From a virus: a stretch of DNA of 64,000 nt. How positions within the stretch are numbered: the stretch's first letter is position 1; every line of letters begins with the position of its first letter. The translations under genes and the position numbers were made by a program. The DNA lies in the IMG/VR virus record IMGVR_UViG_3300022921_000004, positions 1 to 64,000 of that record. One strand, given 5' to 3'. Shown piece by piece: positions 1-18,733 of this stretch. The notes beneath the pieces are model-generated. The model saw only the letters and a program-made list of their open reading frames with translations, ran no database searches and was not told the origin of the DNA.

Positions 1-74
1 TTGCAACGTCGGCCTAAATCCCAAGTAATTTGGAAAATATTTCCTGATAATAAATCTATAGTGTCAAAACTCAT
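1..74 (-). CDS. Radical SAM protein, N-terminal fragment cut by window edge
   Basis: Only the first 24 codons are visible; the gene continues beyond base 1. The peptide starts Met-Ser-Phe-Asp and ends in W-D-L-G-R-R-C (residues 18-24). That is the usual lead-in to the first cysteine of a radical SAM CxxxCxxC cluster (pattern WDxxRRCNxxCxYC). The start codon overlaps the stop of the upstream SGNH-like gene by four bases (ATGA), so it is translationally coupled and belongs to the same minus-strand operon. The assignment rests on this short motif and on the five complete radical SAM genes next to it; the remaining cysteines cannot be seen. Confidence 0.55.
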   Translation of the reverse strand, partial: MSFDTIDLLSGNIFQITWDLGRRC

Positions 75-709
75 ACTAATTCTTTCTCAGTTAATTTTTT
101 AAAAAGCCATTGTGCTTCCCATTTATTACCATCATCTCCAAAATGTCTTCCATCGTCTTTGATATATTTTTGATATTTTTCTTTTCCTAAAATTTTTCTA
201 ATGCAAGGAACCTTGGTTCCTTCATGATGTGAGTATACAAAATCAAAATTATTTTCTGCATAACCTAAGCTAACAGTATATTCAAAGTCTAATTGCTTCC
301 ATTCTAAGTTAAGAAAATAATAATTTGCTAATTGGTCAGGAGTTTCTTGGCGAAGATTATGTACCTTAAACTTTTTTCTAGGCACGTGTTGGTAATGATA
401 ATTTGATGTTATTTCTTTAGGAGATTCAAAATAATGATCTTCTAGTACTTTCCACGATGTTAATCTGCCCGGAGTAGTACACTTTAAAATATACACATCA
501 TCTAAAGTATTGTAAAATTGTTTAACTTTTGATGAAAGATATAGATGATAATTTATACTTGTACCAGATACACCCCAATTATAAATTTTTAAATTAGGTG
601 CAAGTAACGACAGATATTCAGGAAAATTAGATCTGCCAGTCAAACATTCAGTTTCTCTAATTTGTCCTTCAACAAAACTGCAACCAAAAATGTGTATACG
701 TTTAGACAT
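71..709 (-). CDS. SGNH/GDSL-like hydrolase
   Basis: The 212-residue protein carries the spaced signatures of the SGNH hydrolase fold. An N-terminal G-C-S-F (residues 9-12) sits at block I with Ser11 as candidate nucleophile. N-W-G-V-S-G (44-49) matches the block II glycine region. D-G-R-H (186-189), followed by F-G-D-D-G-N, supplies the Asp-x-x-His of block V. Family members are esterases, or acyl- or acetyl-transferases acting on lipids, sugars or cell-wall polymers. No signal peptide is visible, so it probably acts in the cytoplasm. It overlaps its neighbours on both sides (8 bp with the radical SAM gene upstream, 4 bp with the one downstream). Its place among glycosyltransferases suggests acylation or deacylation of a glycan, which is inference. 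Confidence 0.6.
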   Translation of the reverse strand: MSKRIHIFGCSFVEGQIRETECLTGRSNFPEYLSLLAPNLKIYNWGVSGTSINYHLYLSSKVKQFYNTLDDVYILKCTTPGRLTSWKVLEDHYFESPKEITSNYHYQHVPRKKFKVHNLRQETPDQLANYYFLNLEWKQLDFEYTVSLGYAENNFDFVYSHHEGTKVPCIRKILGKEKYQKYIKDDGRHFGDDGNKWEAQWLFKKLTEKELV

Positions 710-2114
710 CTTTAAATATGTCCTTCATTTCTGGAAAAGTTTCATCGAATGAAATTCCACGCTGTTTATCACACAGTCCTAAGAATTCTTTCATTTCAGG
801 TAGACGTTGACTCCAGTCTTCGCTTTCCATAAATTGTAACATACCGTCAAGACGTTTAATACCATATTCTGCTTCTCGCCACTGGTCATATGTAACTTTA
901 CCTTTATGCCAACTAGGAATACATAATTCCCAATTAGCTTCTAACCACGGATAAAATTCTTCATATTTTTTACGGCACTGTTCTTTAAACCATTTAGGCA
1001 AAGATCTAACGTTAAGATGTGCCGGCCAATATACAAAATGAAAGTTTACTGTACCCGCTCCAAATGGATACATGTTAATCTTTTTAAATCCTTCTTGTAA
1101 TTTCCATTTGATAAAATCAGGAAGATAATAAATGTTTAATGCTTGTACTGCACAAGCAATTGTAACTTCAACATTATCTGTAGTTTCTTTATCTAAAATA
1201 TGAAACACTTCTTTTGTTCTATCCCATTTACTAGGATAACGAATGTATTCATTCATTTGCTCAATGCTGTCTACGCTGTAATGGAATCTAACAAGTTTAA
1301 AATGACTCCATAATTCAAATAAATCGTCACGCCATTCAACACCATTTGAATTATAACGTAGTTCTAATTCTGGTGCAAGTCCTTGGCGTATTGCTTCCTC
1401 AAGTATTTCGTAGTGTTCTTCGATAATAAGACTTTCGCCGCCGGCAAAATAAATTTGCTTCATGTGTTTCATCTGTTCATAGAACTGTTCCCAAAATACA
1501 GGATTTTGCTTATGCCAGTTATAACTACTACCATTGGTACTACCTTTGTTATCCCATTGCATAATCTCTTTAAGTGATTCATTTTTAACTTCTGGAAAAA
1601 TTGCTTTGTAATCTTTAATCCAACCCGAACTATCATGCGGACTACACATAACACATGCTAACTGACACTTGGTTCCAAAACGCAAATCAATGTATGCCAA
1701 TTGCGGAGGAACACTACCATCCGGTTGTGTTTCTTGTAAAATTTGATCTAGATCAACACGCTGACTCCAATATGCTGTTTCCCATTGACGCTTACTTCTA
1801 TGTCCATTTTCTTCTTCTCGGAAACATTTCATACAGCTAGGAGGCTTTTCACCTGCAAGCATTTGTTTACGTACATTCTTCATATACGTACTATTCCATG
1901 CTGTATTAAGGTCAGTAACATTTAAATTATTAGGACGACCTTCTTCATCTTTAAGTATACCTACTTGTCCGCCATATTCTTTATCATTCGTTGGACCAAC
2001 GCTACTTGCATTTGCTGTACAACATACACGCATACTGCCGTCGGGTCTTGTGCTTAGATGCACCCATGGTAATAAACAAAATGTTTCTGATGGATACTTA
2101 GGTTTTTCTGTCAT
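702..2114 (-). CDS. Radical SAM protein with N-terminal SPASM-like cysteine region
   Basis: This 470-residue protein has a radical SAM core with Cys150, Cys154 and Cys157 (C-QLA-C-VM-C, CxxxCxxC) to bind the [4Fe-4S] cluster that cleaves S-adenosylmethionine. A-G-G-E (224-227) matches the GGE motif that contacts the SAM amino group. Before the core lie more cysteines, at 13, 31, 32, 94 and 97. They include G-S-M-R-V-C-C and C-M-K-C, which resemble the auxiliary-cluster ligands of SPASM/twitch domains, normally found after the core. The protein ends F-P-E-M-K, as does its paralogue at 6956-8302, which has the same unusual order. SPASM enzymes modify peptides, proteins or sugars; the substrate here is unknown. 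Start and stop overlap neighbouring genes, which indicates one operon. Confidence 0.85.
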   Translation of the reverse strand: MTEKPKYPSETFCLLPWVHLSTRPDGSMRVCCTANASSVGPTNDKEYGGQVGILKDEEGRPNNLNVTDLNTAWNSTYMKNVRKQMLAGEKPPSCMKCFREEENGHRSKRQWETAYWSQRVDLDQILQETQPDGSVPPQLAYIDLRFGTKCQLACVMCSPHDSSGWIKDYKAIFPEVKNESLKEIMQWDNKGSTNGSSYNWHKQNPVFWEQFYEQMKHMKQIYFAGGESLIIEEHYEILEEAIRQGLAPELELRYNSNGVEWRDDLFELWSHFKLVRFHYSVDSIEQMNEYIRYPSKWDRTKEVFHILDKETTDNVEVTIACAVQALNIYYLPDFIKWKLQEGFKKINMYPFGAGTVNFHFVYWPAHLNVRSLPKWFKEQCRKKYEEFYPWLEANWELCIPSWHKGKVTYDQWREAEYGIKRLDGMLQFMESEDWSQRLPEMKEFLGLCDKQRGISFDETFPEMKDIFKDV

Positions 2115-3112
2115 TTTAATGCCTCAAATCGTTGCGTTGCAACTTTGTTTTGTTTACAGTTTTCTATACACTTTGGAAAAATACCGTTTTTAATTCCTGT
2201 ATATAAATTAGTATACCATTCACTATCAAAAATATCCTGTATACTATTATGTCCATTTAGTCTATGATGTTCAGTTCCGTGATCTTTACTGTAATGTTGC
2301 CATAGACCTCTAAATCCACTCTTAGTTCCCCACCAGCAACACGGAACAACATATCCATGATGTGTAACATATAGTCCTTGATCTTCTATTTTAGAACTAA
2401 TACATCTTGGAATAACTGTTGGAACTTCTTGTTTTTTCTCAACTTTAGGGTCACTTTTATGCTGAGAGTTTTTACCTAAGTCTGCTCTTGGGCTTCCGAT
2501 AAATTTTACTCTACTAAATCCTTCTTTGGCTGCAATATCTTCTATAAGATGAGCTTGATGTTCGTTATGCGAAAAATATATGAATTGCCATACAGCGTCG
2601 CCGCCGGCAGCAATATAATTTCTAAAATTTCTTTGTACTTTTTGCCAATCAACATTTACTCTATAAATATGGTTAGTATCTTCTAATCCATCTAATCCCC
2701 AATTTACTCTAACACGACCATTTGACTCTTTTGAAATTTCTCCCAACGTTGTCCAAAACTCATCATTACGTGTTCCGCCGTTAGTAGCAATAGAAATCTT
2801 AGGTTTGCTAGTAAACAATTCATCATTAGATAAAATCCATTTAACAATTTCAATTAAATCAGGATTAGTAGTTGCTTCGTCGTAGTTACCACACATATGG
2901 ATTAGGCGCAAATCAGTCCATTTATCTTTAGATACCCAACTTTTAAATTGTTCTAAACTTACATACATACTATTCACATCAAAGTGATAATCCATATCAA
3001 TAAGTTTATCATTAATAAATGCACGAGCACAGGCAGGACATGCCGCGTTGCAATAATTTGACATTTCAATTTGCAGTTTAGTTTGTCTTTCTACTGGTAC
3101 TTGCCAACTCAT
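2111..3112 (-). CDS. Radical SAM/SPASM-type protein, tandem paralogue 1
   Basis: The protein has 333 residues, with the radical SAM cluster at Cys21, Cys25 and Cys28 (C-NAA-C-PA-C). A distinctive D-T-N-H-I-Y-R follows at about 145-151. The C-terminal part has Cys237, an adjacent pair Cys258-Cys259 in V-P-C-C-W, and Cys315/Cys319, a layout that fits an auxiliary iron-sulfur cluster (SPASM or twitch). It is clearly related to the next two genes (3109-4176 and 4188-5255), sharing cysteine positions, the N-H-I-Y-R block, an H-N-E/Q-H segment and the C-C-W/F motif. The three look like products of tandem duplication. It overlaps both neighbours by 4 bp. It probably acts in the cytoplasm on a peptide, protein or glycan precursor; the reaction cannot be deduced. 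Confidence 0.85.
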   Translation of the reverse strand: MSWQVPVERQTKLQIEMSNYCNAACPACARAFINDKLIDMDYHFDVNSMYVSLEQFKSWVSKDKWTDLRLIHMCGNYDEATTNPDLIEIVKWILSNDELFTSKPKISIATNGGTRNDEFWTTLGEISKESNGRVRVNWGLDGLEDTNHIYRVNVDWQKVQRNFRNYIAAGGDAVWQFIYFSHNEHQAHLIEDIAAKEGFSRVKFIGSPRADLGKNSQHKSDPKVEKKQEVPTVIPRCISSKIEDQGLYVTHHGYVVPCCWWGTKSGFRGLWQHYSKDHGTEHHRLNGHNSIQDIFDSEWYTNLYTGIKNGIFPKCIENCKQNKVATQRFEALK

Positions 3113-4176
3113 TCTTGTTCCACCATAACATTTTGATAGGCTTTATTAAAGCCACAACTAGCAACACACCGTTTCATATGTTTATTGTGTGACGGATTCC
3201 AGCTTTCTTCTAAAACCTTAGTATACCAAGGATGTTTCATAACTTCTTCAATGCTATGTTTTTTTAAACTATTCCATCCTGTAGAATATTCAGATAATTT
3301 TTCTAAAATGTTTTCTTTGTTCTTAAACGCACTATCCCACAAAAAACAACAAGGCCACATCTCTTGGTTTGCATTAATAAAAATTTCGCCTTCATGAACA
3401 TACTTACAAACAATAGATTTTACAACTTCTTCATCTACTTGATTAGTTTGAATTTTATTCATCAACTCTAATACTTCGTCTTTACGTGCATGTTCTTTGC
3501 TACCAGTAGTAGTAATAGTTTTTACTTCTTTAGTAACGTTTCCGCGGCCTTCTTTTTTTGCAATTTGGGCAGTCCATTGATTTAAGCTATTACGCATGCC
3601 TGTTCTAATTACAAATTTTAGTCCCAAACTTTTAGCATGTGCTTTAGCAACTTCAATTTCGTGTTCGTTATGATCAAATACAATAAAAACCCACTTAGAT
3701 CTTGTATCATCACCTTTATAAGAATTTTCTGCGAACGCTTCGATATTACGTTTTACTATATCAAACTTTGTGTTTACACGATAAATGTGATTAGTTTCTC
3801 GATGTCCGTCAATACAGAACATCATAATTAAGTCTCTTCCGTATTGTTTGCTTAGTTCACCTAGTCTATACCAACTTGCTTTAGGTGCAACGCCGCCATT
3901 AGTACTAATTGTAACATATGCGCCGCCTTCTAATAAGTATTCTACAATTTCAACAAACTGTGGGTGAATTGCAGGATCTCCTAGTACGCCGCATAGCCTA
4001 ATATCTTTATCTTTTAAATGTGCCTCGTCTGGTAATATTCTTTTTAAGTCATCAAGTGAAAAACTTGTTACTTCTAAGATGTCTCGGTTAAGTGTTCTTG
4101 CACAACCTGGGCATGCGGCATTACAATCACTTGTAATTTCCAGTTCGATTTTGTGTATGTCATTTATGTTTATCAT
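3109..4176 (-). CDS. Radical SAM/SPASM-type protein, tandem paralogue 2
   Basis: The protein has 355 residues with the cluster motif C-NAA-C-PG-C at Cys18, Cys22 and Cys25, directly after a beta strand I-E-L-E-I-T. T-N-H-I-Y-R lies at 128-133. The C-terminal half holds a cysteine in S-I-V-C-K, the pair in W-P-C-C-F, and C-V-A-S-C near the end, consistent with an auxiliary [4Fe-4S] domain. It differs from its sisters by an insert rich in Lys, Arg and Thr around residue 210-230. The start is uncertain because no strong ribosome binding site precedes the ATG; a run of TA dinucleotides lies there instead. Its stop overlaps the next start (ATGA). See 2111-3112 for the shared features. Confidence 0.85.
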   Translation of the reverse strand: MININDIHKIELEITSDCNAACPGCARTLNRDILEVTSFSLDDLKRILPDEAHLKDKDIRLCGVLGDPAIHPQFVEIVEYLLEGGAYVTISTNGGVAPKASWYRLGELSKQYGRDLIMMFCIDGHRETNHIYRVNTKFDIVKRNIEAFAENSYKGDDTRSKWVFIVFDHNEHEIEVAKAHAKSLGLKFVIRTGMRNSLNQWTAQIAKKEGRGNVTKEVKTITTTGSKEHARKDEVLELMNKIQTNQVDEEVVKSIVCKYVHEGEIFINANQEMWPCCFLWDSAFKNKENILEKLSEYSTGWNSLKKHSIEEVMKHPWYTKVLEESWNPSHNKHMKRCVASCGFNKAYQNVMVEQE

Positions 4177-4187
4177 TATATATGTAC

Positions 4188-5255
4188 TTATTTAAACTGT
4201 TCAGTGAAAGGATCAAACTCGGCGCCGCACTTTGTAGCACATACTTTTAGTTTGCCGGCATCACAACTAGGTTTATTCCAACTATCTTGTATTTCATCAA
4301 ATATACCTGTAGCAAAAACTTTATCAAGACCATTACGTGCGTCTAGTACATTTTTATCAGGAATAAAATCCCATATCTGTTCTACTTTAGGATCTTTGTG
4401 CCACCATTTATACATACGACCAGCAGTCCAGCAACAAGGCAATGCTAGTCCTTCTGCTGTAATAAAGAGGCTACCTTCTTTTTTAACTTTACATACGATA
4501 GGAGCCGCGTTAAAATAAGCATCCATACTGCCATATTTCTTGATAATGGCTTCTTGTTTTGTAAGAGCTTTGTTTTGGTATTGTGCGTCCGGCTTTTTGA
4601 GCTCTGCTGTATCTTTGCCTTTACGGTCTTTGGCCTGATGCTTTTCTTTTTTGTTTGTCTTTGCATCTACAAATCTTCCTGTTTTCTTTTTTATAAACTT
4701 CTCACATCCCCATGCATTAGCTAACTGTTCAGCTTCTTCGACTTGATGCTGATTGTGTTCAAATATAAGAAAGTCCCAACGTGCTCTACCGCCAGCATCG
4801 ATAAACGCTCGCATGTTGCGTTCTACGTTGTCCCAATTTACCCCTTGTCTGTAAATATGATTCGTATCGCGAAGACCATCGACACTAAAAATAACAGCCC
4901 CCATTCTTCCAAAGACATAGGCCAATTCATTCCACCATTCAACATTTTTTGCTCCTGCATTTGTATTCATGCTTAACCACATCGTTGGGTTATGTTCACG
5001 AAAGTATTTGAATATTTCTAATGTGTCACGAGCAACAATAGGATCACCTAAGTTACCACACATATACATAGTATTAAGCTGTGCAATAAACTCTGGAGAG
5101 AATATTTTTTTACAATCTTCTAATGTAAGTTCATCTAGATTAATATGAGGATTAATTCCTTCGCCATTCATATTACGGTCACACATAGGACAACTGGCTT
5201 GACAGTTTTGTGTAACTTCTAAATGAATTGATCGTATGTCGCTATAATTATACAT
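4188..5255 (-). CDS. Radical SAM/SPASM-type protein, tandem paralogue 3
   Basis: The protein has 355 residues with the cluster motif C-QAS-C-PM-C at Cys18, Cys22 and Cys25, and T-N-H-I-Y-R at 131-136. The C-terminal region has A-P-I-V-C-K, L-P-C-C-W and C-A-T-K-C, the same auxiliary-cluster pattern as the two paralogues downstream. A Lys-rich stretch (K-K-K, T-N-K-K-E-K, K-D-R-K-G-K) lies in the middle, between the core and the C-terminal cluster region, at the same relative place as the insert in 3109-4176. It overlaps the small gene at 5248-5499 by 8 bp. Three such enzymes in a row suggest either three substrates or three steps on one substrate. Confidence 0.85.
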   Translation of the reverse strand: MYNYSDIRSIHLEVTQNCQASCPMCDRNMNGEGINPHINLDELTLEDCKKIFSPEFIAQLNTMYMCGNLGDPIVARDTLEIFKYFREHNPTMWLSMNTNAGAKNVEWWNELAYVFGRMGAVIFSVDGLRDTNHIYRQGVNWDNVERNMRAFIDAGGRARWDFLIFEHNQHQVEEAEQLANAWGCEKFIKKKTGRFVDAKTNKKEKHQAKDRKGKDTAELKKPDAQYQNKALTKQEAIIKKYGSMDAYFNAAPIVCKVKKEGSLFITAEGLALPCCWTAGRMYKWWHKDPKVEQIWDFIPDKNVLDARNGLDKVFATGIFDEIQDSWNKPSCDAGKLKVCATKCGAEFDPFTEQFK

Positions 5256-5499
5256 CTATTACCAACTTTATATCTTTACCCGGTCCAACTTTACTAGGCA
5301 AGTCACCGTATTGATCTACATACCACTTAATAACTGCACGATACCAGTTTTGACTATCGTGGTGTGCTTGTTTATTAAACTGCCAAATATTGTTGTTAGT
5401 TGCTTGCATTGTACTTAATGCTCTAGCACTTTCAGTTTGCAGTTGTCTAAGTGATAAATTACTTGTATCCAATGCGCATATACCTCGTATATTTTTCAA
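5248..5499 (-). CDS. Small hypothetical protein in the radical SAM operon
   Basis: This is an open frame of up to 83 residues between the methyltransferase and the radical SAM gene 4188-5255, overlapping both. The longest frame starts at a TTG 40 bp inside the methyltransferase. A second TTG nine codons later, preceded by GAGG at about 10 nt, is an alternative. I do not recognise a family. The protein has no cysteines in its C-terminal half and no leader/core pattern. It ends in an acidic, hydrophobic tail (K-L-V-I-D-V). Its size and place next to radical SAM genes make it worth comparing with peptide substrates of such enzymes, but nothing in it positively supports that role. Confidence 0.5.
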   Translation of the reverse strand: MKNIRGICALDTSNLSLRQLQTESARALSTMQATNNNIWQFNKQAHHDSQNWYRAVIKWYVDQYGDLPSKVGPGKDIKLVIDV

Positions 5500-6292
5500 G
5501 ATCTAATTCTCCTTCATACAATAATGTTGTCATAGGAGCCATTCTAGCAAAATCGTGCATGCTAGTAGTACAGTTAACGTGTTCTTCAACTTCATAGAAA
5601 TCGTTACTTTGTAATACAACTAATCTTCCTGCTGGAATTAAATCATACCACTCACTAAAATTTTTAATGTGTTCACAACTTGTATTAATAATAGTATTAG
5701 GAATATCTCCTAAATCAACGGTTGTTCCATTAGCACGTAATACTGTGTATATTGCATTTTCGTAATTTATCTCTTTAATATCTTTAGTACATGATTTAAA
5801 TTTCCAGCCGTCTAGCACCCAGTTTTTATTAAATGCTTCTGCTACTTCTCTGCAAGTATCATCGATGTCAAAACTTCTAAATTTTTCAATTTTTAAATTG
5901 TTTTCAAACATCATAGTAGCAAGTGTAGCATACCAACCAGCACATAAAAATACAACACCTAGATCAAGATTTAATTTTTTTAGTTCTGATACTAGCCACT
6001 GTTTACTTTTTATCTGACCTCGACTAATACAGTCTGGATCAAAGTTTTCGTTTTTTTGTAATTTACGGATCCCTTCAATAAAAGGTGTATCTTTCATCTG
6101 TTTAATTGCACGAAATAAACTCCATACGTTATCCTGTAACAATGCTTTACGTAAATCATCTTTATTGTCATCTGTAACAATTCTAAAAATACTATTAAGA
6201 TCTTTGTCAATATATGCTCTACGTAGATCTGATAGTTTGCTACTAGTGGGATATAATAGTTCTAATCTATCTAAAATTTCATGAGTTTGCAT
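5459..6292 (-). CDS. Class I SAM-dependent methyltransferase-like protein
   Basis: The protein has 277 residues. A Rossmann-type SAM-binding segment is visible: a hydrophobic strand L-G-V-V-F-L-C-A-G-W (about 111-120) in the place of motif I, then F-R-S-F-D-I-D-D (138-145), whose acidic residue would bind the ribose of SAM. The motif I glycines are fewer than in canonical enzymes. The N-terminal 100 residues are helical and unassigned. The ATG at 6292 is preferred over a TTG one codon upstream because AAGGAG lies 7 nt before the ATG. The start overlaps the end of the glycosyltransferase-like gene upstream. A likely role is methylation of a sugar or small molecule made by this operon; a protein substrate is also possible. 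Confidence 0.6.
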   Translation of the reverse strand: MQTHEILDRLELLYPTSSKLSDLRRAYIDKDLNSIFRIVTDDNKDDLRKALLQDNVWSLFRAIKQMKDTPFIEGIRKLQKNENFDPDCISRGQIKSKQWLVSELKKLNLDLGVVFLCAGWYATLATMMFENNLKIEKFRSFDIDDTCREVAEAFNKNWVLDGWKFKSCTKDIKEINYENAIYTVLRANGTTVDLGDIPNTIINTSCEHIKNFSEWYDLIPAGRLVVLQSNDFYEVEEHVNCTTSMHDFARMAPMTTLLYEGELDLEKYTRYMRIGYK

Positions 6293-6968
6293 CAAATTGC
6301 TCCTTTAACCAATCAAAGTCGTTTATTAATTTAATATCATTGCTGTTAGAAAGGCCAAACTGCATACCAGCCCTAGCACCTCCCAACGCATACTCACCAA
6401 ACTCTCTATCGTGTCCCAAGGTTGTCCAAGTTTTGAGTCTTTCATTTGTTTCATCCTCATGTTGTCTATCAATTGTTTTACTTGCTAATTTAGCACATTC
6501 TCTAAAAGCACTTTTCCATGTGTTAAACGGATCTGTATTAAATGCTGTAATATTAGATATCTCATTAATTACTTTAAATTTATCACTAATACTAGTTGTC
6601 ATATCTGTTGTACTTGTATCCATTTGCTTAGTTAATTCAGTTGGAAATAACTTTACGCCGCCATACCCATAAATTAAATTATTAATAGGATTCATGCTTC
6701 TATAAACATGCACTGTATCAGATTCGGTTGTATAGTAATTAAAATCAAATTCATCAACAATTACTGCGTCGCCGTCTACAACAAAAAAGTAATTAGTAGT
6801 TGATAACTTAGCCGCTTCAATATGAGCATTGTGGATCCCTTTTACATTACTAACTCGCTTTACTCTGTCATCACCAAAGATTCCAACTGTATTAAATCTA
6901 CTATATAAATCGTCAAAATTTTGTTCTGCATTTGGTTCATGATAACTTATAAACACTATGTCGTACAT
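6279..6968 (-). CDS. Glycosyltransferase-like protein (SYxEPNAE type)
   Basis: The protein has 229 residues. It opens with a beta strand and S-Y-H-E-P-N-A-E (8-15). V-V-D-G-D (63-67) has the DxD arrangement by which GT-A glycosyltransferases bind the metal and nucleotide sugar. A-F-R-E-C and L-G-H-D-R-E-F-G-E-Y further on resemble acceptor-side motifs of the paralogue at 8304-9224, which shares the opening motif (S-Y-D-E-P-N-A-E), the DGD and the W-K/R-A-G/S-F-R-E segment. The start at 6968 is chosen because AAGGAG lies 8 nt upstream; a GTG three codons earlier overlaps that site. It overlaps the radical SAM gene 6956-8302 by 13 bp. The sugar and acceptor are unknown. Confidence 0.65.
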   Translation of the reverse strand: MYDIVFISYHEPNAEQNFDDLYSRFNTVGIFGDDRVKRVSNVKGIHNAHIEAAKLSTTNYFFVVDGDAVIVDEFDFNYYTTESDTVHVYRSMNPINNLIYGYGGVKLFPTELTKQMDTSTTDMTTSISDKFKVINEISNITAFNTDPFNTWKSAFRECAKLASKTIDRQHEDETNERLKTWTTLGHDREFGEYALGGARAGMQFGLSNSNDIKLINDFDWLKEQFDANS

Positions 6969-8302
6969 TGTTTGCACTCCTTGTAAAAATTCTTTAATTC
7001 AGGAAATACAGTTAAGAAATCGGTGCCTCGGCGTTTGTCAAACTGAGTAATAAATTCATAAAACATAAATCTACGTTCTTTAGCAAGACTGCCAAACTCT
7101 TCTGGATTTTTAAATCGTTTATCTAAATCTTGCACAATTCTTTTTAAATCATTTGTTTCATGCTCGTCAAAATTTTCTTCCATAAACTTTATACAAGGAA
7201 TTAAATATGTTTCAATCATGTCTTCAGTTGCAATCATTGCATCAAGAAATCCAGGATTTCTTACATATGGAATTGCAATTCTCACTCTGTTTTTAAAACT
7301 ATTACGTAGTCTTAACACAATTCCAAGAAACGGTCTAAATGTAGGAAAACTTAAAATATTAAATGCTGACATAAAACTTAGTTTTCCGTTAGTATTTTTT
7401 AGATACAATAATACATTATCATAGAATTGTTGCCAATTCATTCCTGTTCTACTATACTCTGCTTGCGCTCCTTTACTTTCAGCACTTACATGTAAGGTAA
7501 ATCCTTTAATACAATTATTATTTTCAAGATGCTGTATTTTTTTAATAAACTTATTCCATAGCTTTCCTGGGGGACATGCATTTGTATTAATAGAAAATTC
7601 TAACTGAGGTTGAGGATTATCTATTAAATGTTGCAATACTTTATCAGTATGTTTACTTAAAAGAGGTTCACCTCCTGTAATACGAAAAGTGTGCATATGT
7701 TTAACTGCTTCAGGAAACCATTTCCAAAATGCGTTAATATACGGGTTATCTTCTCTTTCAGGAATTTGCTTTTGATATTCATCTAGTTGATTGTAAAACC
7801 AATTGATCGTACTAAACTTATAATGACCGTGTTCTTTAATTTCTTCAGTCCATTTACTACTAAATGCTGGTCCACAATAACTACACTTAAAATTGCATAC
7901 ATTAGAAAAACTTACTTCAACATATCTAGGATAAAAATCATCATATGCGTTAGAATTTACAATTTTGTGATAATCTGGCCAACTCCAATAATTTCTACTT
8001 TTCCATATTCTATCACTATAATGATCCGTGTTATCTTCAATGCGCCAACAGTAATCACATTCACTAGGTCTTTCACCGCTTTTCATCTGTTGGCGTGTAT
8101 TCTTTTTAAACATTGTATTATGTAGTAATTGCGGATTTTCTTCAACTTCGTTAATTGGAATTGTATGTGCCTTTACATGATGACAACTATGATTTAATCC
8201 TGATCCTAAGTGTATAGTAACCTGTGTCCATTTAGCCAAACAGAATCCGCATCCTACTTGATTTAACTTTTCTTTAACTTTTTTAGGATCTGTTAATTCC
8301 AT
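6956..8302 (-). CDS. Radical SAM protein with N-terminal SPASM-like cysteine region
   Basis: The protein has 448 residues. The core cluster is C-NFK-C-SY-C at Cys136, Cys140 and Cys143, with T-G-G-E-P at 209-213. Before the core, Cys18, Cys21, Cys40, Cys82 and Cys85 (the last two in E-C-D-Y-C) form a cysteine-rich region like that of 702-2114. The two proteins also share M-K/L-S/A-G-E-R/K-P and a closing F-P-E-L/M-K, so they are paralogues with the auxiliary-cluster region placed first. A good ribosome binding site (AAGGA, 5 nt before the ATG) supports the start. Flanked by two related glycosyltransferase-like genes, it may act on the same glycan or on the acceptor they share; this is inference from gene order. 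Confidence 0.85.
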   Translation of the reverse strand: MELTDPKKVKEKLNQVGCGFCLAKWTQVTIHLGSGLNHSCHHVKAHTIPINEVEENPQLLHNTMFKKNTRQQMKSGERPSECDYCWRIEDNTDHYSDRIWKSRNYWSWPDYHKIVNSNAYDDFYPRYVEVSFSNVCNFKCSYCGPAFSSKWTEEIKEHGHYKFSTINWFYNQLDEYQKQIPEREDNPYINAFWKWFPEAVKHMHTFRITGGEPLLSKHTDKVLQHLIDNPQPQLEFSINTNACPPGKLWNKFIKKIQHLENNNCIKGFTLHVSAESKGAQAEYSRTGMNWQQFYDNVLLYLKNTNGKLSFMSAFNILSFPTFRPFLGIVLRLRNSFKNRVRIAIPYVRNPGFLDAMIATEDMIETYLIPCIKFMEENFDEHETNDLKRIVQDLDKRFKNPEEFGSLAKERRFMFYEFITQFDKRRGTDFLTVFPELKNFYKECKQCTT

Positions 8303-8303
8303 T

Positions 8304-9224
8304 TTATTCCTTGTCTATAATAAACTGCTGGGCACTATTTCTACTAGGATTTTGATAAACTGTTTTAAAAAAAGCACTTTGTTCTTCAGTAAATGGCTGA
8401 ATAGCAATTGGACATTCTAGTTCATTTACTAGGCGTGCGCCATGTATAAAAATTTCGTCATGTAATACTTCTAGTGGCAACGCATCTCGGCCGGCCCATA
8501 GATCGTTTAAATATTTAAAATCTCTTACATTTACATAATCCCAATCATCTAACATTGTAGCAACTAGACCTTCACGTGCTCCATAAATTGCCCAGTTTCC
8601 ATTTGGAGTATCAGAACCAACCATTAACCAAATCCACAGTCTGTGTAAATTTTTCCAATGGCCAGAAAGGAAATTTTCTTTAGTAGGTTTAACACCTCGG
8701 TCTAATGCCATCTTTACACCTTCACGAAATCCAGCTCGCCATGCTTGATGTGGCGTGGCGTTATTATACACATCACTATAGCAACTGTTCTGTTGAATGT
8801 ATTGCAAGTCCCAACAAAAATCTACTTGGGCAGACTTATTATCTGGATCGGCGTTTTCGTGTGTACGCATATTAAGCACATACTCTTTAGGCCAACATTT
8901 TAAACCGCCGTTGCCGTACATAAGTCCATTAATAGCATTTTTACCACACCAGCTAATAACACTATTTTCTAAGTCTGTATGTTCGTCAAAGTCTAATACT
9001 TGATTAATAAAATCTGGACGAATTTTATTATCGCCATCAACTGTAATAAATCGATCCGTTTCACTTAATTCAGCACATGCTTTATGTGCGGCATCACTAC
9101 CTTCTACGCCATGCACACGTTTAGCCCAAGGTGCCTTAGTAAGCAAGTCAGCATAATTTTCTTCTGCATTAGGTTCATCATAACTCAAATATATAATATC
9201 TTGTTCTGCAATCTTTAACTTCAT
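8304..9224 (-). CDS. Glycosyltransferase-like protein (SYxEPNAE type)
   Basis: The protein has 306 residues and is a paralogue of 6279-6968. Y-L-S-Y-D-E-P-N-A-E-E-N lies at 12-23. T-V-D-G-D at 61-65 is the candidate DxD metal and nucleotide-sugar site. W-R-A-G-F-R-E-G-V-K occurs in the middle, then W-A-I-Y-G-A-R-E-G. It is longer than its paralogue by a C-terminal extension of about 70 residues. Ribosome binding site GAGGA lies 7 nt before the ATG. No membrane segment is visible, so it should be cytoplasmic. The pair flanks a radical SAM gene. I do not know the sugar donor or the acceptor. Confidence 0.65.
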   Translation of the reverse strand: MKLKIAEQDIIYLSYDEPNAEENYADLLTKAPWAKRVHGVEGSDAAHKACAELSETDRFITVDGDNKIRPDFINQVLDFDEHTDLENSVISWCGKNAINGLMYGNGGLKCWPKEYVLNMRTHENADPDNKSAQVDFCWDLQYIQQNSCYSDVYNNATPHQAWRAGFREGVKMALDRGVKPTKENFLSGHWKNLHRLWIWLMVGSDTPNGNWAIYGAREGLVATMLDDWDYVNVRDFKYLNDLWAGRDALPLEVLHDEIFIHGARLVNELECPIAIQPFTEEQSAFFKTVYQNPSRNSAQQFIIDKE

Positions 9225-9742
9225 TTCTTTTCCTCATACACGCATCTAGTTATTTTGCTATTTGAATAAATGCTGTATTCATCTGGTACGTTTAAATCTA
9301 CATGTTGTGTGTCACTTAAATTGAACTTAACTGACTTATACAAAAAATGCGGATCTTCTTTTTTTGTTACACTAAACAGTATTTCTTCTTCTAACTTAGA
9401 GTCTACAAGACTCTGATTTGTACTAATATAACATAAATTATGTTGCTTGTCAACTGTAAATATTAGATCATGCAAACTATCATCAGATATATGCAATACT
9501 TTATTGAAAACAAATTTATCATTTATAGATATGTTCTTTTTTAACTTATAAGTTTTAGTTATAATGTCAAACAGAACTCTGTAATCTTCCATTTTATCTT
9601 CATAGGACTGTATTGGTGCTATTTCTCTTTCGGTAACTTCAATATATTCGTAGCCATCTTCAATGGAAGCCCCTACACTAAACAGTTCGCCTGTTTCTTT
9701 AACAAAACATGCATACTGTTTTCTATCCCAATTAGCATACAT
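9221..9742 (-). CDS. Hypothetical protein
   Basis: This is a 173-residue protein of unknown function, starting M-Y-A-N-W-D-R-K-Q-Y. The start at 9742 is chosen because GGAG lies 8 nt upstream; the open frame reaches 54 bases further up, but that stretch lies inside the preceding glycosyltransferase gene and has no binding site. The protein looks beta-rich with alternating short hydrophobic strands and many Lys, Asp and Ser. There are no transmembrane helices and no recognised catalytic motif. It overlaps both neighbouring glycosyltransferase-like genes (11 bp upstream, 4 bp downstream), so it is coupled to them, perhaps as a partner protein; that is inference. Confidence 0.7.
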   Translation of the reverse strand: MYANWDRKQYACFVKETGELFSVGASIEDGYEYIEVTEREIAPIQSYEDKMEDYRVLFDIITKTYKLKKNISINDKFVFNKVLHISDDSLHDLIFTVDKQHNLCYISTNQSLVDSKLEEEILFSVTKKEDPHFLYKSVKFNLSDTQHVDLNVPDEYSIYSNSKITRCVYEEKK

Positions 9743-10532
9743 TGTATTTCTCCATAATTTGATTACAAAATTTATCTTCTGTATAATGAAATACACCTAA
9801 CTGACTATAATTTCCTATTTTTAAGTTACATTCATCATCCATATAATACGGAATGTCATCTAACCAATTATCACTTGGATTACTCCAGTCTTGTACTTTT
9901 GATTTCATGTGAGTAAATGATAATAAGTTGCAAGAGTATTTTTCTAAATTAGTATTTAAAACTGCTATTGCATGATTGATATCCATACTACTTAACCTAG
10001 GCTTTAATTTCTTTAAGTAAATATTGTAAAATTCCTCATGATTTTTACAAACTAATTCTAGATGTTTATAATATTGTAATCCAATATCGTTCTTTTTAAA
10101 ATAATGAAATGCACAATACACGTTTGGTAAGTTATTTTTTATAAATGCTTGTCTATAATAATTATCTTTAACTATAGTACCTTTATATGTTTGAACATTT
10201 GTAGTAAAGCATACGTCATATTTTTCTAAATAGGTCCAAACATGGTCTATATTAGATAAAAATATCATGTCAGTATCTAAAACAATAGTTTCTGTATAGG
10301 GAGTTACATGAAAGATTTTCCAACGATCTTCAGTACGATAAAAGTCGGTGCCAGATTGCCAAGGTATAGCAATTACATTATCAAATACATTACGATACTC
10401 ATCTGGAAGTTTATCATTAGTAATAATAGAAACACTATTAATTTCTTGTGTTTTCTTAATACTCAATGCGCAAAGATATGCCTGTTTCACATAATCTTTG
10501 CCTGAAGCCATCATTACATATCCTTTAGACAT
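9732..10532 (-). CDS. Glycosyltransferase, GT8-like
   Basis: The protein has 266 residues. The pattern fits a GT-A fold of family 8 type: an N-terminal strand followed by Y-V-K-Q-A-Y-L-C-A-L-S-I (14-25), then T-I-V-L-D-T-D-M-I-F (82-91) with Asp86-x-Asp88 as the metal and UDP-sugar site. A late H-Y-T-E segment is in the usual place of the C-terminal histidine. Family 8 enzymes transfer glucose, galactose or similar sugars with retention. The first Met is supported by the paralogue at 10525-11355, which also begins M-S-K-G. The cluster's two GT8-like genes lie next to each other and overlap by 8 bp, so they arose by duplication and are co-translated. Confidence 0.75.
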   Translation of the reverse strand: MSKGYVMMASGKDYVKQAYLCALSIKKTQEINSVSIITNDKLPDEYRNVFDNVIAIPWQSGTDFYRTEDRWKIFHVTPYTETIVLDTDMIFLSNIDHVWTYLEKYDVCFTTNVQTYKGTIVKDNYYRQAFIKNNLPNVYCAFHYFKKNDIGLQYYKHLELVCKNHEEFYNIYLKKLKPRLSSMDINHAIAVLNTNLEKYSCNLLSFTHMKSKVQDWSNPSDNWLDDIPYYMDDECNLKIGNYSQLGVFHYTEDKFCNQIMEKYNVC

Positions 10533-11355
10533 TTATTAACTTATCCAAACTAAATTTATTCATTACGTGTACATTCATATTATTTGTTGATGCTAATGTA
10601 TACTCGCCATGAATATTCTCCTTTTCAAGAAGAAATGTTAATTGTTCATCGTGTAGCTTATGTAAAATATCTCTATCTAGAGAATAATATAACTTTCCAG
10701 GCAACGATTTAGCCCAGTCTAAATCTTTAAATCCGTTCAGTATGTGTATTGCAATACTAAACGCATGATCATTTCTAAAGTTACGAGATCCTAGATCATA
10801 AACATATTGATAATGTTCCCAATTGTTTACTACATAATTTAATATAGTAAAGAATGTTTTAATTTCTGGCGTTTTTTTAAAATAAAATATTGAAGCCCAA
10901 TAAAATGGAATACCCTTATCATTAATATAATCAAATTCTTTATGCTTGCGCCATGATGCTACATCAATACATTCTTTATAGATTTGAAATTCATGGAGGC
11001 TATCAAATGCGTGTTTCAATGTATCATTACAAATAATAATATCAGTGTCTAATACTAAGGTCTGATTATAAGGAGTTAACTCATAACTGTTAGACCTACC
11101 AAAATTTTTAAAATATAAAGTTTTATAAGTTTCTTGGCCGTTTCGATATCGTTTAAAATTATTATCTGAGTCGCTGATAGTAATAACGTTATCAAATATT
11201 TTTCTATAACTGCTATTAATTGCATCTGGAGTTGAAGTTACAACCGTAGTGGGCAAGTTTAAATGCTTGCGAATTCGATTAGCAAGCAAAACTGCTTGCT
11301 TTACATAATCAATTTCACCATTATTATTTGCAAAGCATAATACACCTTTACTCAT
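10525..11355 (-). CDS. Glycosyltransferase, GT8-like (paralogue)
   Basis: The protein has 276 residues and shares M-S-K-G, D-Y-V-K-Q-A (16-21), an N-V-I-T-I strand and T-P-Y-N-Q-T-L-V-L-D-T-D (94-105) with the gene just downstream. Asp103-x-Asp105 is the candidate DxD site. The C-terminal part has N-D-H-A-F-S-I-A (paralogue: D-I-N-H-A-I-A), typical of the acceptor side of these enzymes, and M-N-V-H-V-M-N-K near the end. It overlaps the small gene 11348-11695 by 8 bp. Substrates are unknown. Proximity to the fibre genes makes glycosylation of virion or surface structures a reasonable guess. Confidence 0.75.
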   Translation of the reverse strand: MSKGVLCFANNNGEIDYVKQAVLLANRIRKHLNLPTTVVTSTPDAINSSYRKIFDNVITISDSDNNFKRYRNGQETYKTLYFKNFGRSNSYELTPYNQTLVLDTDIIICNDTLKHAFDSLHEFQIYKECIDVASWRKHKEFDYINDKGIPFYWASIFYFKKTPEIKTFFTILNYVVNNWEHYQYVYDLGSRNFRNDHAFSIAIHILNGFKDLDWAKSLPGKLYYSLDRDILHKLHDEQLTFLLEKENIHGEYTLASTNNMNVHVMNKFSLDKLINV

Positions 11356-11695
11356 TAACTAAGCCTTCAACATTTCTTTTAGCTGTAAGGATTGTGTATT
11401 CAGAATAGTATCTATTAGATGCTGTAACATATTGCTGTTTTGCTAAATTAACAAACTGTTTTAGATCTTCGACTAATACTGGGGTGTCGTTATCATCTGT
11501 AATTACTGTTTTCTTAACATCGAGCATTAGTAGATTAGAAACAAAAGAAAATAACTCTTTTGAAACAGTGAATCTTCCGCCTAAGTGATACAGTACTAAG
11601 TCTTCTTGATATTTTTGTTGCAATAGTCGCTTTTGTGTACTAAGTGTCGCAGAAAAATTAGCAAACTCTAATGCTTTCTTTAGATCGTTATCCAT
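11348..11695 (-). CDS. Small hypothetical protein heading the accessory operon
   Basis: The protein has 115 residues and looks mostly helical. It contains D-D-N-D-T-P-V followed by a helix V-E-D-L-K-Q-F-V-N, and R-F-T-V-S-K-E-L. Similar small proteins with a D-D-N-D-T-P-V segment occur near fibre genes in other marine T4-like phages, as far as I recall; their function is unknown. AGGAG lies 8 nt before the ATG. This is the first gene of the run leading down to base 1, and the 35-bp gap to the fibre gene upstream is the only place for an operon promoter. That gap has a TATACT but no convincing partner element. Confidence 0.7.
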   Translation of the reverse strand: MDNDLKKALEFANFSATLSTQKRLLQQKYQEDLVLYHLGGRFTVSKELFSFVSNLLMLDVKKTVITDDNDTPVLVEDLKQFVNLAKQQYVTASNRYYSEYTILTAKRNVEGLVNE

Positions 11696-11730: not shown

Positions 11731-12645
11731 TTAGAGGTTGTCAGTTGTATTGAAAGTTGGCGCTGGAACGTTAACACTACTTGCGTTATTTGGTCTTCTT
11801 TGTTGTATTGTACTTGTTGTTGTAGCCGTTACTGCTTCGTCAAAGTTGGGATTAGGGCCTTTATCTTCATTGAATGTAACACGGAACGTTAGTACTGCAC
11901 CATTTTTCTGTGCTTCAACTAAGTAATCATTGGCTCCGTACGCACTTGCTGTCTTGTTAAACACTGCTGTATAAGAGCCAGGTAAGTTTGAATATCCATA
12001 ATTAGTGCCAGTTGAACCGTTGCTTGTTGTACTTCTGCCAAATACTACAGTTCCTACGCTAGTCATCAAATTTCTCCAGTCGTTGTTAATTGGAGTATTT
12101 CCTGAACCAATAGTACCACTTAGGTTAATAGTTCCGCCTGCGTTAAAAAATACACGCATATGTTCTGCACCACTAATTGTAGTTGTAGAACCGTCGCCGT
12201 TTGTTACAGCATAACCGGGGAACGTTACTGTAAATATGTGGTTAATATCAGTTGACCAACTTGCAGTTCTTTGACTTGATGTTCCTGCCTGCAATCCTGT
12301 TTGGTTTGCATTAACATTGAGTCTTGCGCCTTGACATGTAATACTCAAGGATTCGTACTGTACATATCCTTCTTTTGATATAGTATTGCTTTCCTCAACA
12401 GTATCGCCTACTGATGGTTGTGCAATTTCTGTAGGTACTGCACCAGTTTGGTGTAGTCTAATTCTATACATGTCATTGTAAAGTTTGACCATGTCGGCAG
12501 CTTGCACTGTTGCGCCTGAAGAAATTGTAGCACTTTCAACTGCTTGTCCGTATCCTTCGTCTCCGGAACCGAGCCCTAAGACTGCGGCAATTCTTGCTCG
12601 AATAATGTTGTACCTTGCCGCGGTAATTGTATCGCCTACTGCCAT
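11731..12645 (-). CDS. Virion structural protein (fibre-associated)
   Basis: The 304-residue protein has an alanine-rich helical N-terminus (residues 1-70) followed by a long Thr/Ser/Gly/Asn-rich part typical of phage fibre and appendage proteins, with many short beta repeats such as G-S-T-G-T-N-Y-G-Y. It has no cysteine except one near residue 104. It is the last gene of the minus-strand fibre run; GAGGA lies about 8 nt before the ATG. A weak late-promoter-like TATAAGTA (minus, 12671-12664) precedes it. Which appendage it belongs to cannot be told. Confidence 0.65.
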   Translation of the reverse strand: MAVGDTITAARYNIIRARIAAVLGLGSGDEGYGQAVESATISSGATVQAADMVKLYNDMYRIRLHQTGAVPTEIAQPSVGDTVEESNTISKEGYVQYESLSITCQGARLNVNANQTGLQAGTSSQRTASWSTDINHIFTVTFPGYAVTNGDGSTTTISGAEHMRVFFNAGGTINLSGTIGSGNTPINNDWRNLMTSVGTVVFGRSTTSNGSTGTNYGYSNLPGSYTAVFNKTASAYGANDYLVEAQKNGAVLTFRVTFNEDKGPNPNFDEAVTATTTSTIQQRRPNNASSVNVPAPTFNTTDNL

Positions 12646-12666: not shown

Positions 12667-14145
12667 TTATACTTTAAGTACGCACTCAACTAATTTTTCT
12701 GACTCTTCAGTGTTTGATTCCAATGCAATACCAACTAAATTTCCGCCATTGATTACTGTATTTGCTGTACCGTTGTCTCCAACATATACTGCCTGTCCTT
12801 TTTTAACTGAACCTGTTACTCTTACAGGAACACGACCTTTTAGTGCAATGTACTGTCCGTCTGCTTCTGAATTCATCATAAATGCAGGATCAGTCGATAC
12901 AACACCAATTGCTATATCACCTACTTTTGTAGGTTCTACTTCGTGATCAGGATGATCGCAAACTGCTACTACTGTACCAAATGGTAATTCTTCGTTTGTT
13001 GAATATTTTTCTGCTAAGTCAGCATATCTAGCACTAGTTGAAATACCATTAAACACATTAGCAGATAAGTTACCTGAACTATCTCTAACTGCTACAGTAT
13101 TATTTGTTGCGTTTACATCACCTGTTCTAAAGTTTGCACCAACTTGTAGGTTAGTTGCATTTGTAGCAAGACCGTTAAATGTAGTTGCGTACATGTTTCT
13201 AAACTTAAAGTTTGAAGTGCCAACGTCGTATGTTGTCGTAGATGTTGGAATTAGTCCAACAGCCGAAACATGGAATGGTTCAGTTGTTACGCCTCCAACA
13301 GATTTAACTCTAAACCTAATCTTTTGTCCAGTAGTATTCTCAATAACACCTTCGTCACCAGTTCCTGCTTGGTCAATATATACTGCTAAGTCGTTTGCCG
13401 CGCCGACTGTAAATCCAACATCGCCAAATCTAACAACACTAGTAAAATTTGCGTTACCTGAAAGTGCATATGCCGAAGCTAGTTGACCGTTTAATCGGTC
13501 TGAATCAGTTGCAGTTCCCCAAAATCTATGAGTACTTGATGTAACACCTGTTGATCCTGTGTTTCGTAAGGTAACACCTTGTCTAATTACATCAAAACCT
13601 GTAATTACATTCGAAGGATCTGTTTGGTCAATAGTAAATTCGGCATTACTAATAATAAATTGTACGCCGTCTTCGACTGTACCTTTAATAATAGTTCTAT
13701 TTGTTAGGGTAGTATCTCTTACTTGCGAAGTAACCATAGCTGTTACTGTATCACCAATAGATTGTGGACCAATTAGGACAAATCCACCGTCGCTATTTTG
13801 TGCATACAGTTGGTTATTTGATGTATCCCACCAAAAATCACCAGTAGTTAATCCAACTGGTTGTGTGCCGGATACTTCAGCTCCGCCTGTTGTTCTAAAT
13901 TTTGTGCCGTCATAAAACTTGAGCTTCTTTAAGCTACTATCAAACCAAATCTGACCGCTTAATGGGTTAGCAGGTGAATTGCCGCTAGAGAAGTTTTCAA
14001 GTAAATGTACAAAGTTTTCGTTTTGAATTTCACCATAACCGGCATAGTTTTTACCTACTAACTTAATAGTAGTACTTTGGTCAATGGTTCCGTCCTCGAC
14101 AGTGGCTAACTGTTGTCCATTTGTTAAATTAATTATATATGCCAT
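12667..14145 (-). CDS. Tail fibre-like protein with shared N-terminal module
   Basis: The protein has 492 residues. Residues about 1-110 form a module also found at the start of the next two genes: G-Y-G..N-E-N-F..L-L-E-N-F, then P-L-S-G-Q-I-W-F-D-S and a G-D-F-W-W-D segment. This is probably the part that docks to a common site on the baseplate. The middle is Thr/Asn/Gly-rich beta structure. The C-terminal region (about 380-492) has L-A-E-K-Y-S-T-N-E-E, G-T-V-V-A-V and G-R-V-P-V-R-V-T-G-S-V-K-K-G, resembling the terminal domain of many marine phage fibres, possibly a trimerisation or self-processing domain. A TATAAATA late promoter lies 29 bp upstream. Confidence 0.75.
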   Translation of the reverse strand: MAYIINLTNGQQLATVEDGTIDQSTTIKLVGKNYAGYGEIQNENFVHLLENFSSGNSPANPLSGQIWFDSSLKKLKFYDGTKFRTTGGAEVSGTQPVGLTTGDFWWDTSNNQLYAQNSDGGFVLIGPQSIGDTVTAMVTSQVRDTTLTNRTIIKGTVEDGVQFIISNAEFTIDQTDPSNVITGFDVIRQGVTLRNTGSTGVTSSTHRFWGTATDSDRLNGQLASAYALSGNANFTSVVRFGDVGFTVGAANDLAVYIDQAGTGDEGVIENTTGQKIRFRVKSVGGVTTEPFHVSAVGLIPTSTTTYDVGTSNFKFRNMYATTFNGLATNATNLQVGANFRTGDVNATNNTVAVRDSSGNLSANVFNGISTSARYADLAEKYSTNEELPFGTVVAVCDHPDHEVEPTKVGDIAIGVVSTDPAFMMNSEADGQYIALKGRVPVRVTGSVKKGQAVYVGDNGTANTVINGGNLVGIALESNTEESEKLVECVLKV

Positions 14146-18725: not shown

Positions 18726-18733
18726 TATTTATT
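18726..18733 (-). promoter_or_regulatory. Late promoter AATAAATA
   Basis: The NATAAATA late element lies on the minus strand 18 bp upstream of the gene 18097-18708, and covers the end of the giant gene before it. It allows the fibre genes to be transcribed separately from the 15-kb reading frame upstream. Confidence 0.55.

Follow-up and report, generated by a model that had tools for sequence, protein, structure and literature searches.

What would a phage build with a run of radical S-adenosylmethionine (SAM) enzymes interleaved with glycosyltransferase-like and methyltransferase genes? The question is posed by a 64,000-base window (the whole stretch of DNA analysed here) that forms the first part of the linear 124,053-base virus record IMGVR_UViG_3300022921_000004, base 1 being the record's end. 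The answer that we favour, with a probability of roughly 0.42, is a modular island for glycan building and radical tailoring in the tail and host-recognition region of large marine T4-like phages, with the tail fibre as the likeliest acceptor. In relatives, a conserved core made up of a glycosyltransferase-like gene (GTx), a methyltransferase (MTase), a small protein (sm83) and two radical SAM genes (CTw3 and NTwiA) persists amid radical SAM and ligase genes that are gained and lost, and the cassette regularly follows the genes for the baseplate and tail.

The genes on which the argument draws are given below. Labels such as CTw1-3, NTwiA/B, GTx, sm83 and tf304 were coined in this analysis, and open reading frames (ORFs) come from a simple longest-first caller.

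1-74, minus strand: 5′ end only of a sixth radical SAM gene, cut by the contig end; it reads MSFDTIDLLSGNIFQITWDLGRRCN
71-709, minus strand: GDSL/SGNH-like hydrolase (weak likeness), accessory gene; PF00657 14.7 bits, under the cut-off of 23.6
702-2114, minus strand: NTwiA, N-terminal-twitch radical SAM protein, conserved core; NF033640 426 bits, PF04055 36.1 bits
2111-3112, minus strand: CTw1, radical SAM protein with C-terminal twitch-like cysteines (C237, C258, C259, C315, C319); PF04055 35.8 bits; CNAACPAC
3109-4176, minus strand: CTw2, radical SAM protein with C-terminal twitch-like cysteines (C257, C276, C277, C337, C341); PF04055 35.7 bits; CNAACPGC
4188-5255, minus strand: CTw3, radical SAM protein with C-terminal twitch-like cysteines, conserved core; PF04055 31.2 bits
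5248-5472, minus strand: sm83, conserved 74-aa protein; presumed TTG start, ORF open to 5499
5459-6295, minus strand: MTase, class I SAM methyltransferase by predicted fold, with N-terminal helical repeats of ~30 aa
6279-6977, minus strand: GTx1, GT-A-fold transferase by predicted fold; VDGDA (DxD-like)
6956-8302, minus strand: NTwiB, N-terminal-twitch radical SAM protein; NF033640 298.5 bits
8304-9224, minus strand: GTx2, paralogue of GTx1 (33% identity in the alignment); invariant DxD aspartates
9221-9796, minus strand: u191, without a Pfam match, part of the gene order conserved in relatives L010-L015
9732-10532, minus strand: GT8a, GT8-like glycosyltransferase; family profile matches glycogenin
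10525-11355, minus strand: GT8b, GT8-like glycosyltransferase of the same profile family
11348-11695, minus strand: u115, directly before GT8b (58/64 loci)
11731-12645, minus strand: tf304, presumed tail-fibre part from its position alone
12667-14145, minus strand: tf492, tail-fibre-like protein; phrog_19602 tail fiber protein, E 4.2e-12, with weaker matches to head- and scaffold-named families
16016-18097, minus strand: tail protein with a collar domain; PF07484 46.6 bits, phrog_8763 tail protein
33692-37180, minus strand: baseplate wedge subunit, the upstream anchor; phrog_10646, E 6.9e-293

Radical SAM genes of the cassette

A first-pass annotation of the window had described five complete radical SAM genes and the start of a sixth in one overlapping minus-strand run. 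Genes and strand stand as described; the overlap is not unbroken, since an 11-base gap at 4177-4187 separates CTw2 from CTw3. The CxxxCxxC motifs and extra cysteine groups that it reported were borne out in all five complete genes, each of which has a single CX3CX2C and further cysteines positioned as in twitch clusters. Family models and motifs together place the five in the radical SAM superfamily. The Pfam Radical_SAM model (PF04055) is above its cut-off in 4/5, while NTwiB scores 25.8 bits against a cut-off of 29.5, and 29.7 bits when its neighbours in frame are included. NTwiA (426 bits) and NTwiB (298.5 bits) pass the 170-bit cut-off of NF033640, the ‘twitch domain-containing radical SAM protein’ family, whose name carries no function; CTw1, CTw2 and CTw3 stay outside it (48.5 bits, none listed and 39.9 bits). 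NTwiA is also the only gene to pass the SPASM model PF13186 (24 bits, in its N-terminal stretch; cut-off 21.5), which the three CTw genes do not reach (16.5 bits, 17.6 bits and none). Conservation is high in the alignments, with C18, C22, C25, C255, C274, C275, C339 and C343 of CTw3 invariant across 25 sequences and a mean column identity of 84% for NTwiA across 22.

The sixth gene is intact in the relative L010 (14103-15281; 392 aa, motif CNYDCSYC), which matches the window at 12,628 of 12,645 compared bases (99.9% over 12.6 kb) and continues past this gene with more radical SAM genes, its 145,946-base record having 12 PF04055 matches. In the window's own 124-kb record all PF04055 matches (n=5) fall within these 8.3 kb, and a radical SAM profile grown from the window genes found none in the other stretches of that record. 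Of what had looked like a complete modification pathway, the linkage is supported, the five genes all matching radical SAM models, but the completeness is not, the unit being cut by the contig end and continued in L010. In L010, one member looks split, with a radical SAM core and a C-terminal twitch-like stretch in overlapping frames (19594-20217 and 20198-20521). Elsewhere single ORFs of 830-832 aa join a radical SAM domain to an SGGxDS PP-loop ATPase (L029 and L030, 12568-15060; L036, 12574-15072).

Family models also bear on what these enzymes may do. The proteins match viperin models weakly (the sixth radical SAM protein in L010 at 44.3 bits; its relative in L012 at 43.6 bits against a cut-off of 180) and MoaA/NirJ/AhbD models weakly too, which would suit anti-defence or antiviral nucleotide chemistry of the viperin kind, or auxiliary cofactor metabolism of the molybdopterin, haem d1 or PQQ types. 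Viral ahbD labels point the same way in a Baltic survey, which counts 261 such instances and, in the portion of its text available, calls the inference speculative (PMC9301287). We hold this explanation to be very unlikely. All of the NCBIfam matches concerned lie under curated cut-offs, and the best score in the window against the viperin (pVip) model NF038283 (cut-off 180 bits) is 26.8. Viperin- and cofactor-type enzymes are known to act singly, and not as many divergent paralogues beside glycosyltransferases and tail genes. PADLOC gave weak viperin matches only.

A conserved core among exchangeable neighbours

Relatives of NTwiA were confirmed in 92 IMG/VR stretches, and the locus sets analysed are the best 80 of these 92 (74-100% identity) and the best 80 of 477 confirmed stretches for sm83; both sets contain near-duplicates, the loci that carry the marker gene falling into 38 and 37 clusters. 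Radical SAM genes were counted with a profile built from the window's five genes over earlier loci, where 9 of 724 hits were without CX3CX2C, and the same profile was reused on the enlarged set. Each of the 27 non-redundant full-length loci of ~21 kb holds 6-13 radical SAM genes (median 9). The worry that the genes might be scattered in close relatives did not materialise: they are clustered, with 245 of these loci's 256 radical SAM genes on NTwiA's strand, and scattering therefore does not refute a linked pathway. Across the same 27 loci CTw3 occurs in 26, the MTase in 23, and sm83 and GTx1 in 19 each, whereas only 4 have CTw1 and only 3 the hydrolase. PF04055 and anchor searches covered 14 hand-picked records of 117-342 kb, which have 5-22 PF04055 matches each.

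Around this core, neighbouring radical SAM genes vary widely between NTwiA loci. L012 and L013, whose CTw2 and NTwiA are 95% and 99% identical, are without the hydrolase and one radical SAM gene that L010 has, which demonstrates gain or loss of single genes. The hydrolase is absent there between NTwiA and the next radical SAM gene, which puts it outside the conserved core; of the SGNH hydrolase proposed earlier a weak GDSL/SGNH likeness is left. Some relatives add genes for PP-loop ATPases, a carbamoyltransferase, AMP-binding proteins, a hydroxylase or a UDP-sugar dehydrogenase. Lone distant CTw2 relatives also lie among other phage genes (L019 5424-6581, L020 4429-5586, L021 7754-8887).

A CTw3 search of bacterial genome contigs returned three loci (L180, L181 and L182), all on contigs of metagenome-assembled genomes and all with the same core, which are probably binned phage. 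In the cultured-phage collection tf304 and GTx2 had no match, and NTwiA matched only a pair of Vibrio phages, with 22% identity across 69%.

Position behind baseplate and tail genes

Of the 14 records, 13 have both CTw3 and a baseplate-wedge gene. In every one of these 13 the two genes share a strand and CTw3 follows at a distance of 27-59 kb, one record (G010) fitting only if its ends are joined. The gene directly before GT8b is u115 in 58/64 loci, corresponding to 40 of 44 distinct GT8b proteins. A relative of tf304, tf492 or tf611 lies at most three genes upstream of GT8b in 44/64 (33 of 44 distinct); of the other 20 loci, 17 end at that point and 3 carry different genes. Among the matches listed for the capsid protein, the 12 best records, phages of 349-469 kb, show 67-71% identity. 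Between the baseplate and tail-fibre genes, window positions 18729-33692 hold a 4,987-residue ORF, perhaps in the place that VrlC has in pelagimyophages.

This location bears on a further alternative. Phage hypermodification clusters can combine glycosyltransferases, methyltransferases and radical enzymes, so that the cassette might serve DNA or nucleotide hypermodification, with a TET or thymidylate-synthase-like route followed by glycosyltransferase and radical SAM tailoring. A thymidylate-synthase family is found in 5/14 records, and one variable family includes a QueC-like gene (24.7 bits, cut-off 22). Set against these are the tail-region location itself, a C5 DNA methylase in only 1/14 records and Tet_JBP in 0/14, though the controls for Tet_JBP gave no match either. 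We judge this explanation very unlikely.

Transferases and the likely product

Four glycosyltransferase-like genes had been noticed, and four there are; only one (6279-6977) lies within the first 8,302 bases to which all had been assigned, and the others follow at 8304-9224, 9732-10532 and 10525-11355. The family profile of GT8a and GT8b matches a glycogenin structure (E 4.4e-7), with D86 and D88 invariant as a DxD motif. They are labelled ‘GT8-like’ because no GT8 Pfam family was listed for them at E values up to 0.1. For GTx1, an AlphaFold2 (AF2) model with a mean predicted local distance difference test score (pLDDT) of 87.6 supports a GT-A fold, the top Foldseek match being the fucosyltransferase WrtF (E 9.4e-6, TM-score 0.41); a GTx sequence-profile search of the PDB gave no match. 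Fold matches of GTx1 further include SunS/ThuS, glycosyltransferases of ribosomally synthesised and post-translationally modified peptides (RiPPs), and, at 10-12% identity, three PDB entries titled PBCV-1 capsid glycosyltransferase (2p6w, 2p72 and 2p73), which we take to be domain 1 of the protein A064R.

The methyltransferase call of the first-pass annotation agrees with the predicted fold. Although the MTase is without a Pfam match and a PDB sequence-profile search gave three matches, the best at E 0.81, its AF2 model (pLDDT 92.4; Foldseek E 1.4e-6) is predicted to have the Rossmann fold of a class I SAM methyltransferase and superposes on NodS over residues 87-278 with a Z-score of 16.3 (162 residues aligned, 2.5 Å). 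The number of its N-terminal repeats of ~30 residues differs between relatives in the alignment. Glycosyltransferase and MTase genes, unfused in the window itself, are joined in relatives in 23 fusion ORFs (19 distinct proteins), in the order glycosyltransferase-glycosyltransferase-MTase in 22; the remaining one is truncated by the edge of its locus.

This fusion order, the two GT8-like enzymes, the sugar-nucleotide dehydrogenases of relatives, and a PfkB-cytidylyltransferase and an epimerase in the same contig make a glycan the likeliest product. The tail fibre is, from its position, the likeliest target. The main rival directs the same enzymes elsewhere, to the surface polysaccharide of the infected host (O-chain or similar), where remodelling would exclude other phages or alter adsorption of the progeny, and linkage to tail genes would mean only that both lie in a shared hypervariable host-recognition region. 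Such a host-surface role has been proposed in the literature for the GT8 genes of pelagimyophages, whose host-recognition clusters are also noted to carry radical SAM cassettes (PMC7029224), and the UDP-sugar dehydrogenase of relatives and the PfkB-cytidylyltransferase and epimerase would suit it too. The rigid order with tail genes speaks against it, as does the conserved 74-aa sm83, which has no obvious place in such a scheme; flippase, polymerase and membrane glycosyltransferase families are absent among 39 Pfam-scanned proteins, many of them matchless and with no transmembrane prediction run. We regard modification of the host glycan as possible, if doubtful.

The small protein sm83

In the first-pass annotation no RiPP precursor was evident. 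That judgement had overlooked sm83, a small 74-aa protein linked to the radical SAM genes, which is conserved end to end (mean column identity 75% over 24 sequences) with no leader/core pattern. Found in 477 confirmed IMG/VR stretches, sm83 has no match in Pfam, PHROG or NCBIfam and none among 50,697 phage records. Its PDB profile matches, to designed repeat proteins (E values down to 7.4e-10 over 16-19 query residues) and antibodies, were discarded as composition noise.

Among 80 sm83 loci, 79 have at least one radical SAM gene, 77 GTx, 71 CTw3, 69 the MTase and 55 NTwiA, and all 29 loci longer than 20 kb have 5-12 radical SAM genes each. The only locus without one, L179, lies on a contig that ends 2.6 kb past sm83, where an unassigned gene and then a UDP-glucose/GDP-mannose dehydrogenase follow. 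As the ORF caller missed sm83 in 15/80 loci, neighbours were counted in the remaining 65: the MTase directly precedes it in 55 and a gene labelled GTx2 in 9 (a glycosyltransferase-MTase fusion where inspected), and CTw3 comes directly after it in 43.

This association invites a reading as RiPP-like or peptide maturation, in which sm83 or a tail protein would be substrate or carrier, radical SAM enzymes would add cross-links, epimers or other side-chain changes, and the glycosyltransferase and MTase would add sugar and methyl groups. Besides the conservation of sm83, its place before CTw3 and its tie to radical SAM genes, weak radical SAM matches to the maturases SkfB, PapB, YhhB and RumMC (SkfB structure, E 0.026), the three 830-832-aa fusions of PP-loop ATPase and radical SAM domain, and SunS/ThuS among the GTx1 fold matches all lean towards it. 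The maturase matches, however, are all far under cut-off, no family model matches sm83, with no search made specifically for RREs, end-to-end conservation leaves no leader/core division, and sm83 is cysteine-free in the window, with cysteine in only 22/135 copies. On balance we think peptide maturation unlikely. A bolder version casts sm83 as the carrier or acceptor, made on the ribosome, in a viral glycopeptide factory whose interchangeable radical SAM, PP-loop-ligase, glycosyltransferase and MTase modules would build a differing non-canonical structure per phage on a constant scaffold; displayed on the tail fibre, the product would diversify host recognition chemically and not by mutation. 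We offer it as speculation and consider it distinctly improbable.

Comparison with known systems

The papers cited in this section are represented by parts of their texts. That phages occasionally carry one radical SAM enzyme, as the first-pass annotation had it, understates what is in print. The Campylobacter phages CP220 and CPt10 have 11 and 12 per genome, five of them clustered in an interchangeable module (PMC2853527), and the T4-like genome TARA_ERS488813_N000010 has 12, which its authors interpreted in terms of Fe-S-related metabolism (PMC5332604). Another paper, on Campylobacter coli phages, calls radical SAM enzymes unusual for T4-like phages (PMC3322345).

CP220 (FN667788) resembles the window in being T4-like and in having five radical SAM genes and two nucleotide-sugar transferase domains behind possible baseplate lysozyme/PAAR genes. 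It differs in a possible amidinotransferase, in a CTw2 alignment that covers only 47% at ~34% identity, and in having no match to sm83 or GTx2. Between its tail fibre and VrlC, the Pelagibacter phage Mosig (MT647606) likewise has MoaA-like proteins along with carbamoyl-, methyl- and aminotransferases; unlike the window, it has three genes annotated as MoaA-like, an MTase counterpart 27% identical over 68%, and no sm83 match. Because radical SAM enzymes and transferases stand beside tail genes in both CP220 and Mosig, this arrangement suggests a recurrent pattern. The TARA genome, compared by description only, is marine, T4-like and rich in radical SAM genes like the relatives studied here; the available description mentions neither the core nor tail linkage nor a glycan role.

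A parallel for the fused genes comes from A064R of PBCV-1, in which three domains (two glycosyltransferases and a methyltransferase) build and methylate the end of the virus's own capsid glycan (PMC9614988). The order of domains in one virus-encoded polypeptide is that of the relatives' fusion ORFs, whereas A064R belongs to a virus of a eukaryotic alga and acts on a capsid N-glycan, and radical SAM enzymes go unmentioned in the part of the paper available. The resemblance is likely to reflect convergent assembly.

Within the open-licence literature, consulted mostly as titles and beginnings of abstracts, we found no description of the glycosyltransferase-MTase-sm83-CTw3-NTwiA core. Multi-radical-SAM clusters in T4-like phages are already in print, and the core, the scale and the small protein look new.

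Other genes in the same contig

Four regions of the window's own contig are described here. At 107158-109240 (L008 3158-5240) a PfkB and cytidylyltransferase-like protein adjoins an NAD-dependent epimerase, a pair that we take to resemble the ADP-heptose pair. The tryptophan-halogenase family (PF04820, E 3.9e-84 to 2.8e-91) is represented by three genes, at 95276-96754 and 109240-112223 (L007 11276-12754; L008 5240-6715 and 6712-8223), two of them adjoining sugar genes. A carbamoyltransferase (PF02543/PF16861) at 91550-93379 (L007 7550-9379) belongs to the same families as one in a relative's cassette (L088 2524-4032). Finally, three tandem paralogues of ~278 aa at 85094-87631 (L007 1094-3631) share a conserved cysteine-rich stretch, have distant matches in eight cyanophage records, and might be acted on by thiol or radical chemistry.

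Proposed mechanism and its weak points

On the reading that we favour, a glycan island acting on the tail fibre, gene order suggests that the cassette would be expressed late, alongside the tail genes. Of its enzymes, the GT8-like and GT-A ones would join sugars into a short oligosaccharide, which the MTase would methylate. Radical SAM enzymes may then remodel the sugars or the side chains of the acceptor by epimerisation, deoxygenation or oxidation, joined in some relatives by PP-loop ligases, a carbamoyltransferase or a UDP-sugar dehydrogenase. The acceptor would be the neighbouring tail-fibre protein, so that the non-standard decoration on show would differ from phage to phage and could tune receptor binding or hide the fibre.

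Several results weigh against this scheme. None of the six radical SAM proteins submitted passed a sugar-acting NCBIfam model; among equivalogs, they come closest to models of peptide and cofactor maturases, MoaA and viperin, in each case far under cut-off. The PP-loop and AMP-binding ligases of relatives would equally suit peptide or amide chemistry. Nor is CTw2 always one of many: it is the sole radical SAM gene in 3 of the 12 loci fetched with it (L019-L021, the most distant at 28-35% identity, 13-15 kb). For GTx, 17 members gave no significant Pfam family, Foldseek TM-scores of GTx1 are only ~0.4, and in a second fold comparison IspD nucleotidyltransferases tie with glycosyltransferases (Z 9-11). 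On the acceptor side, tf304 has no match in PHROG or the phage collection, and proximity to tail genes may mark merely a permissive hypervariable region.

Implications

If the glycan reading is right, common marine phages would chemically diversify their receptor-binding apparatus, or the host's coat, with radical enzymes, and changes in host range or evasion would be invisible to comparison of fibre sequences alone. The analysis names specific core genes that are open to test, one of them for a conserved uncharacterised protein. It also suggests that viral radical SAM genes labelled in surveys as auxiliary haem or molybdopterin genes may be something else, and it indicates a sizeable reservoir of radical SAM and glycosyltransferase chemistry yet to be explored.

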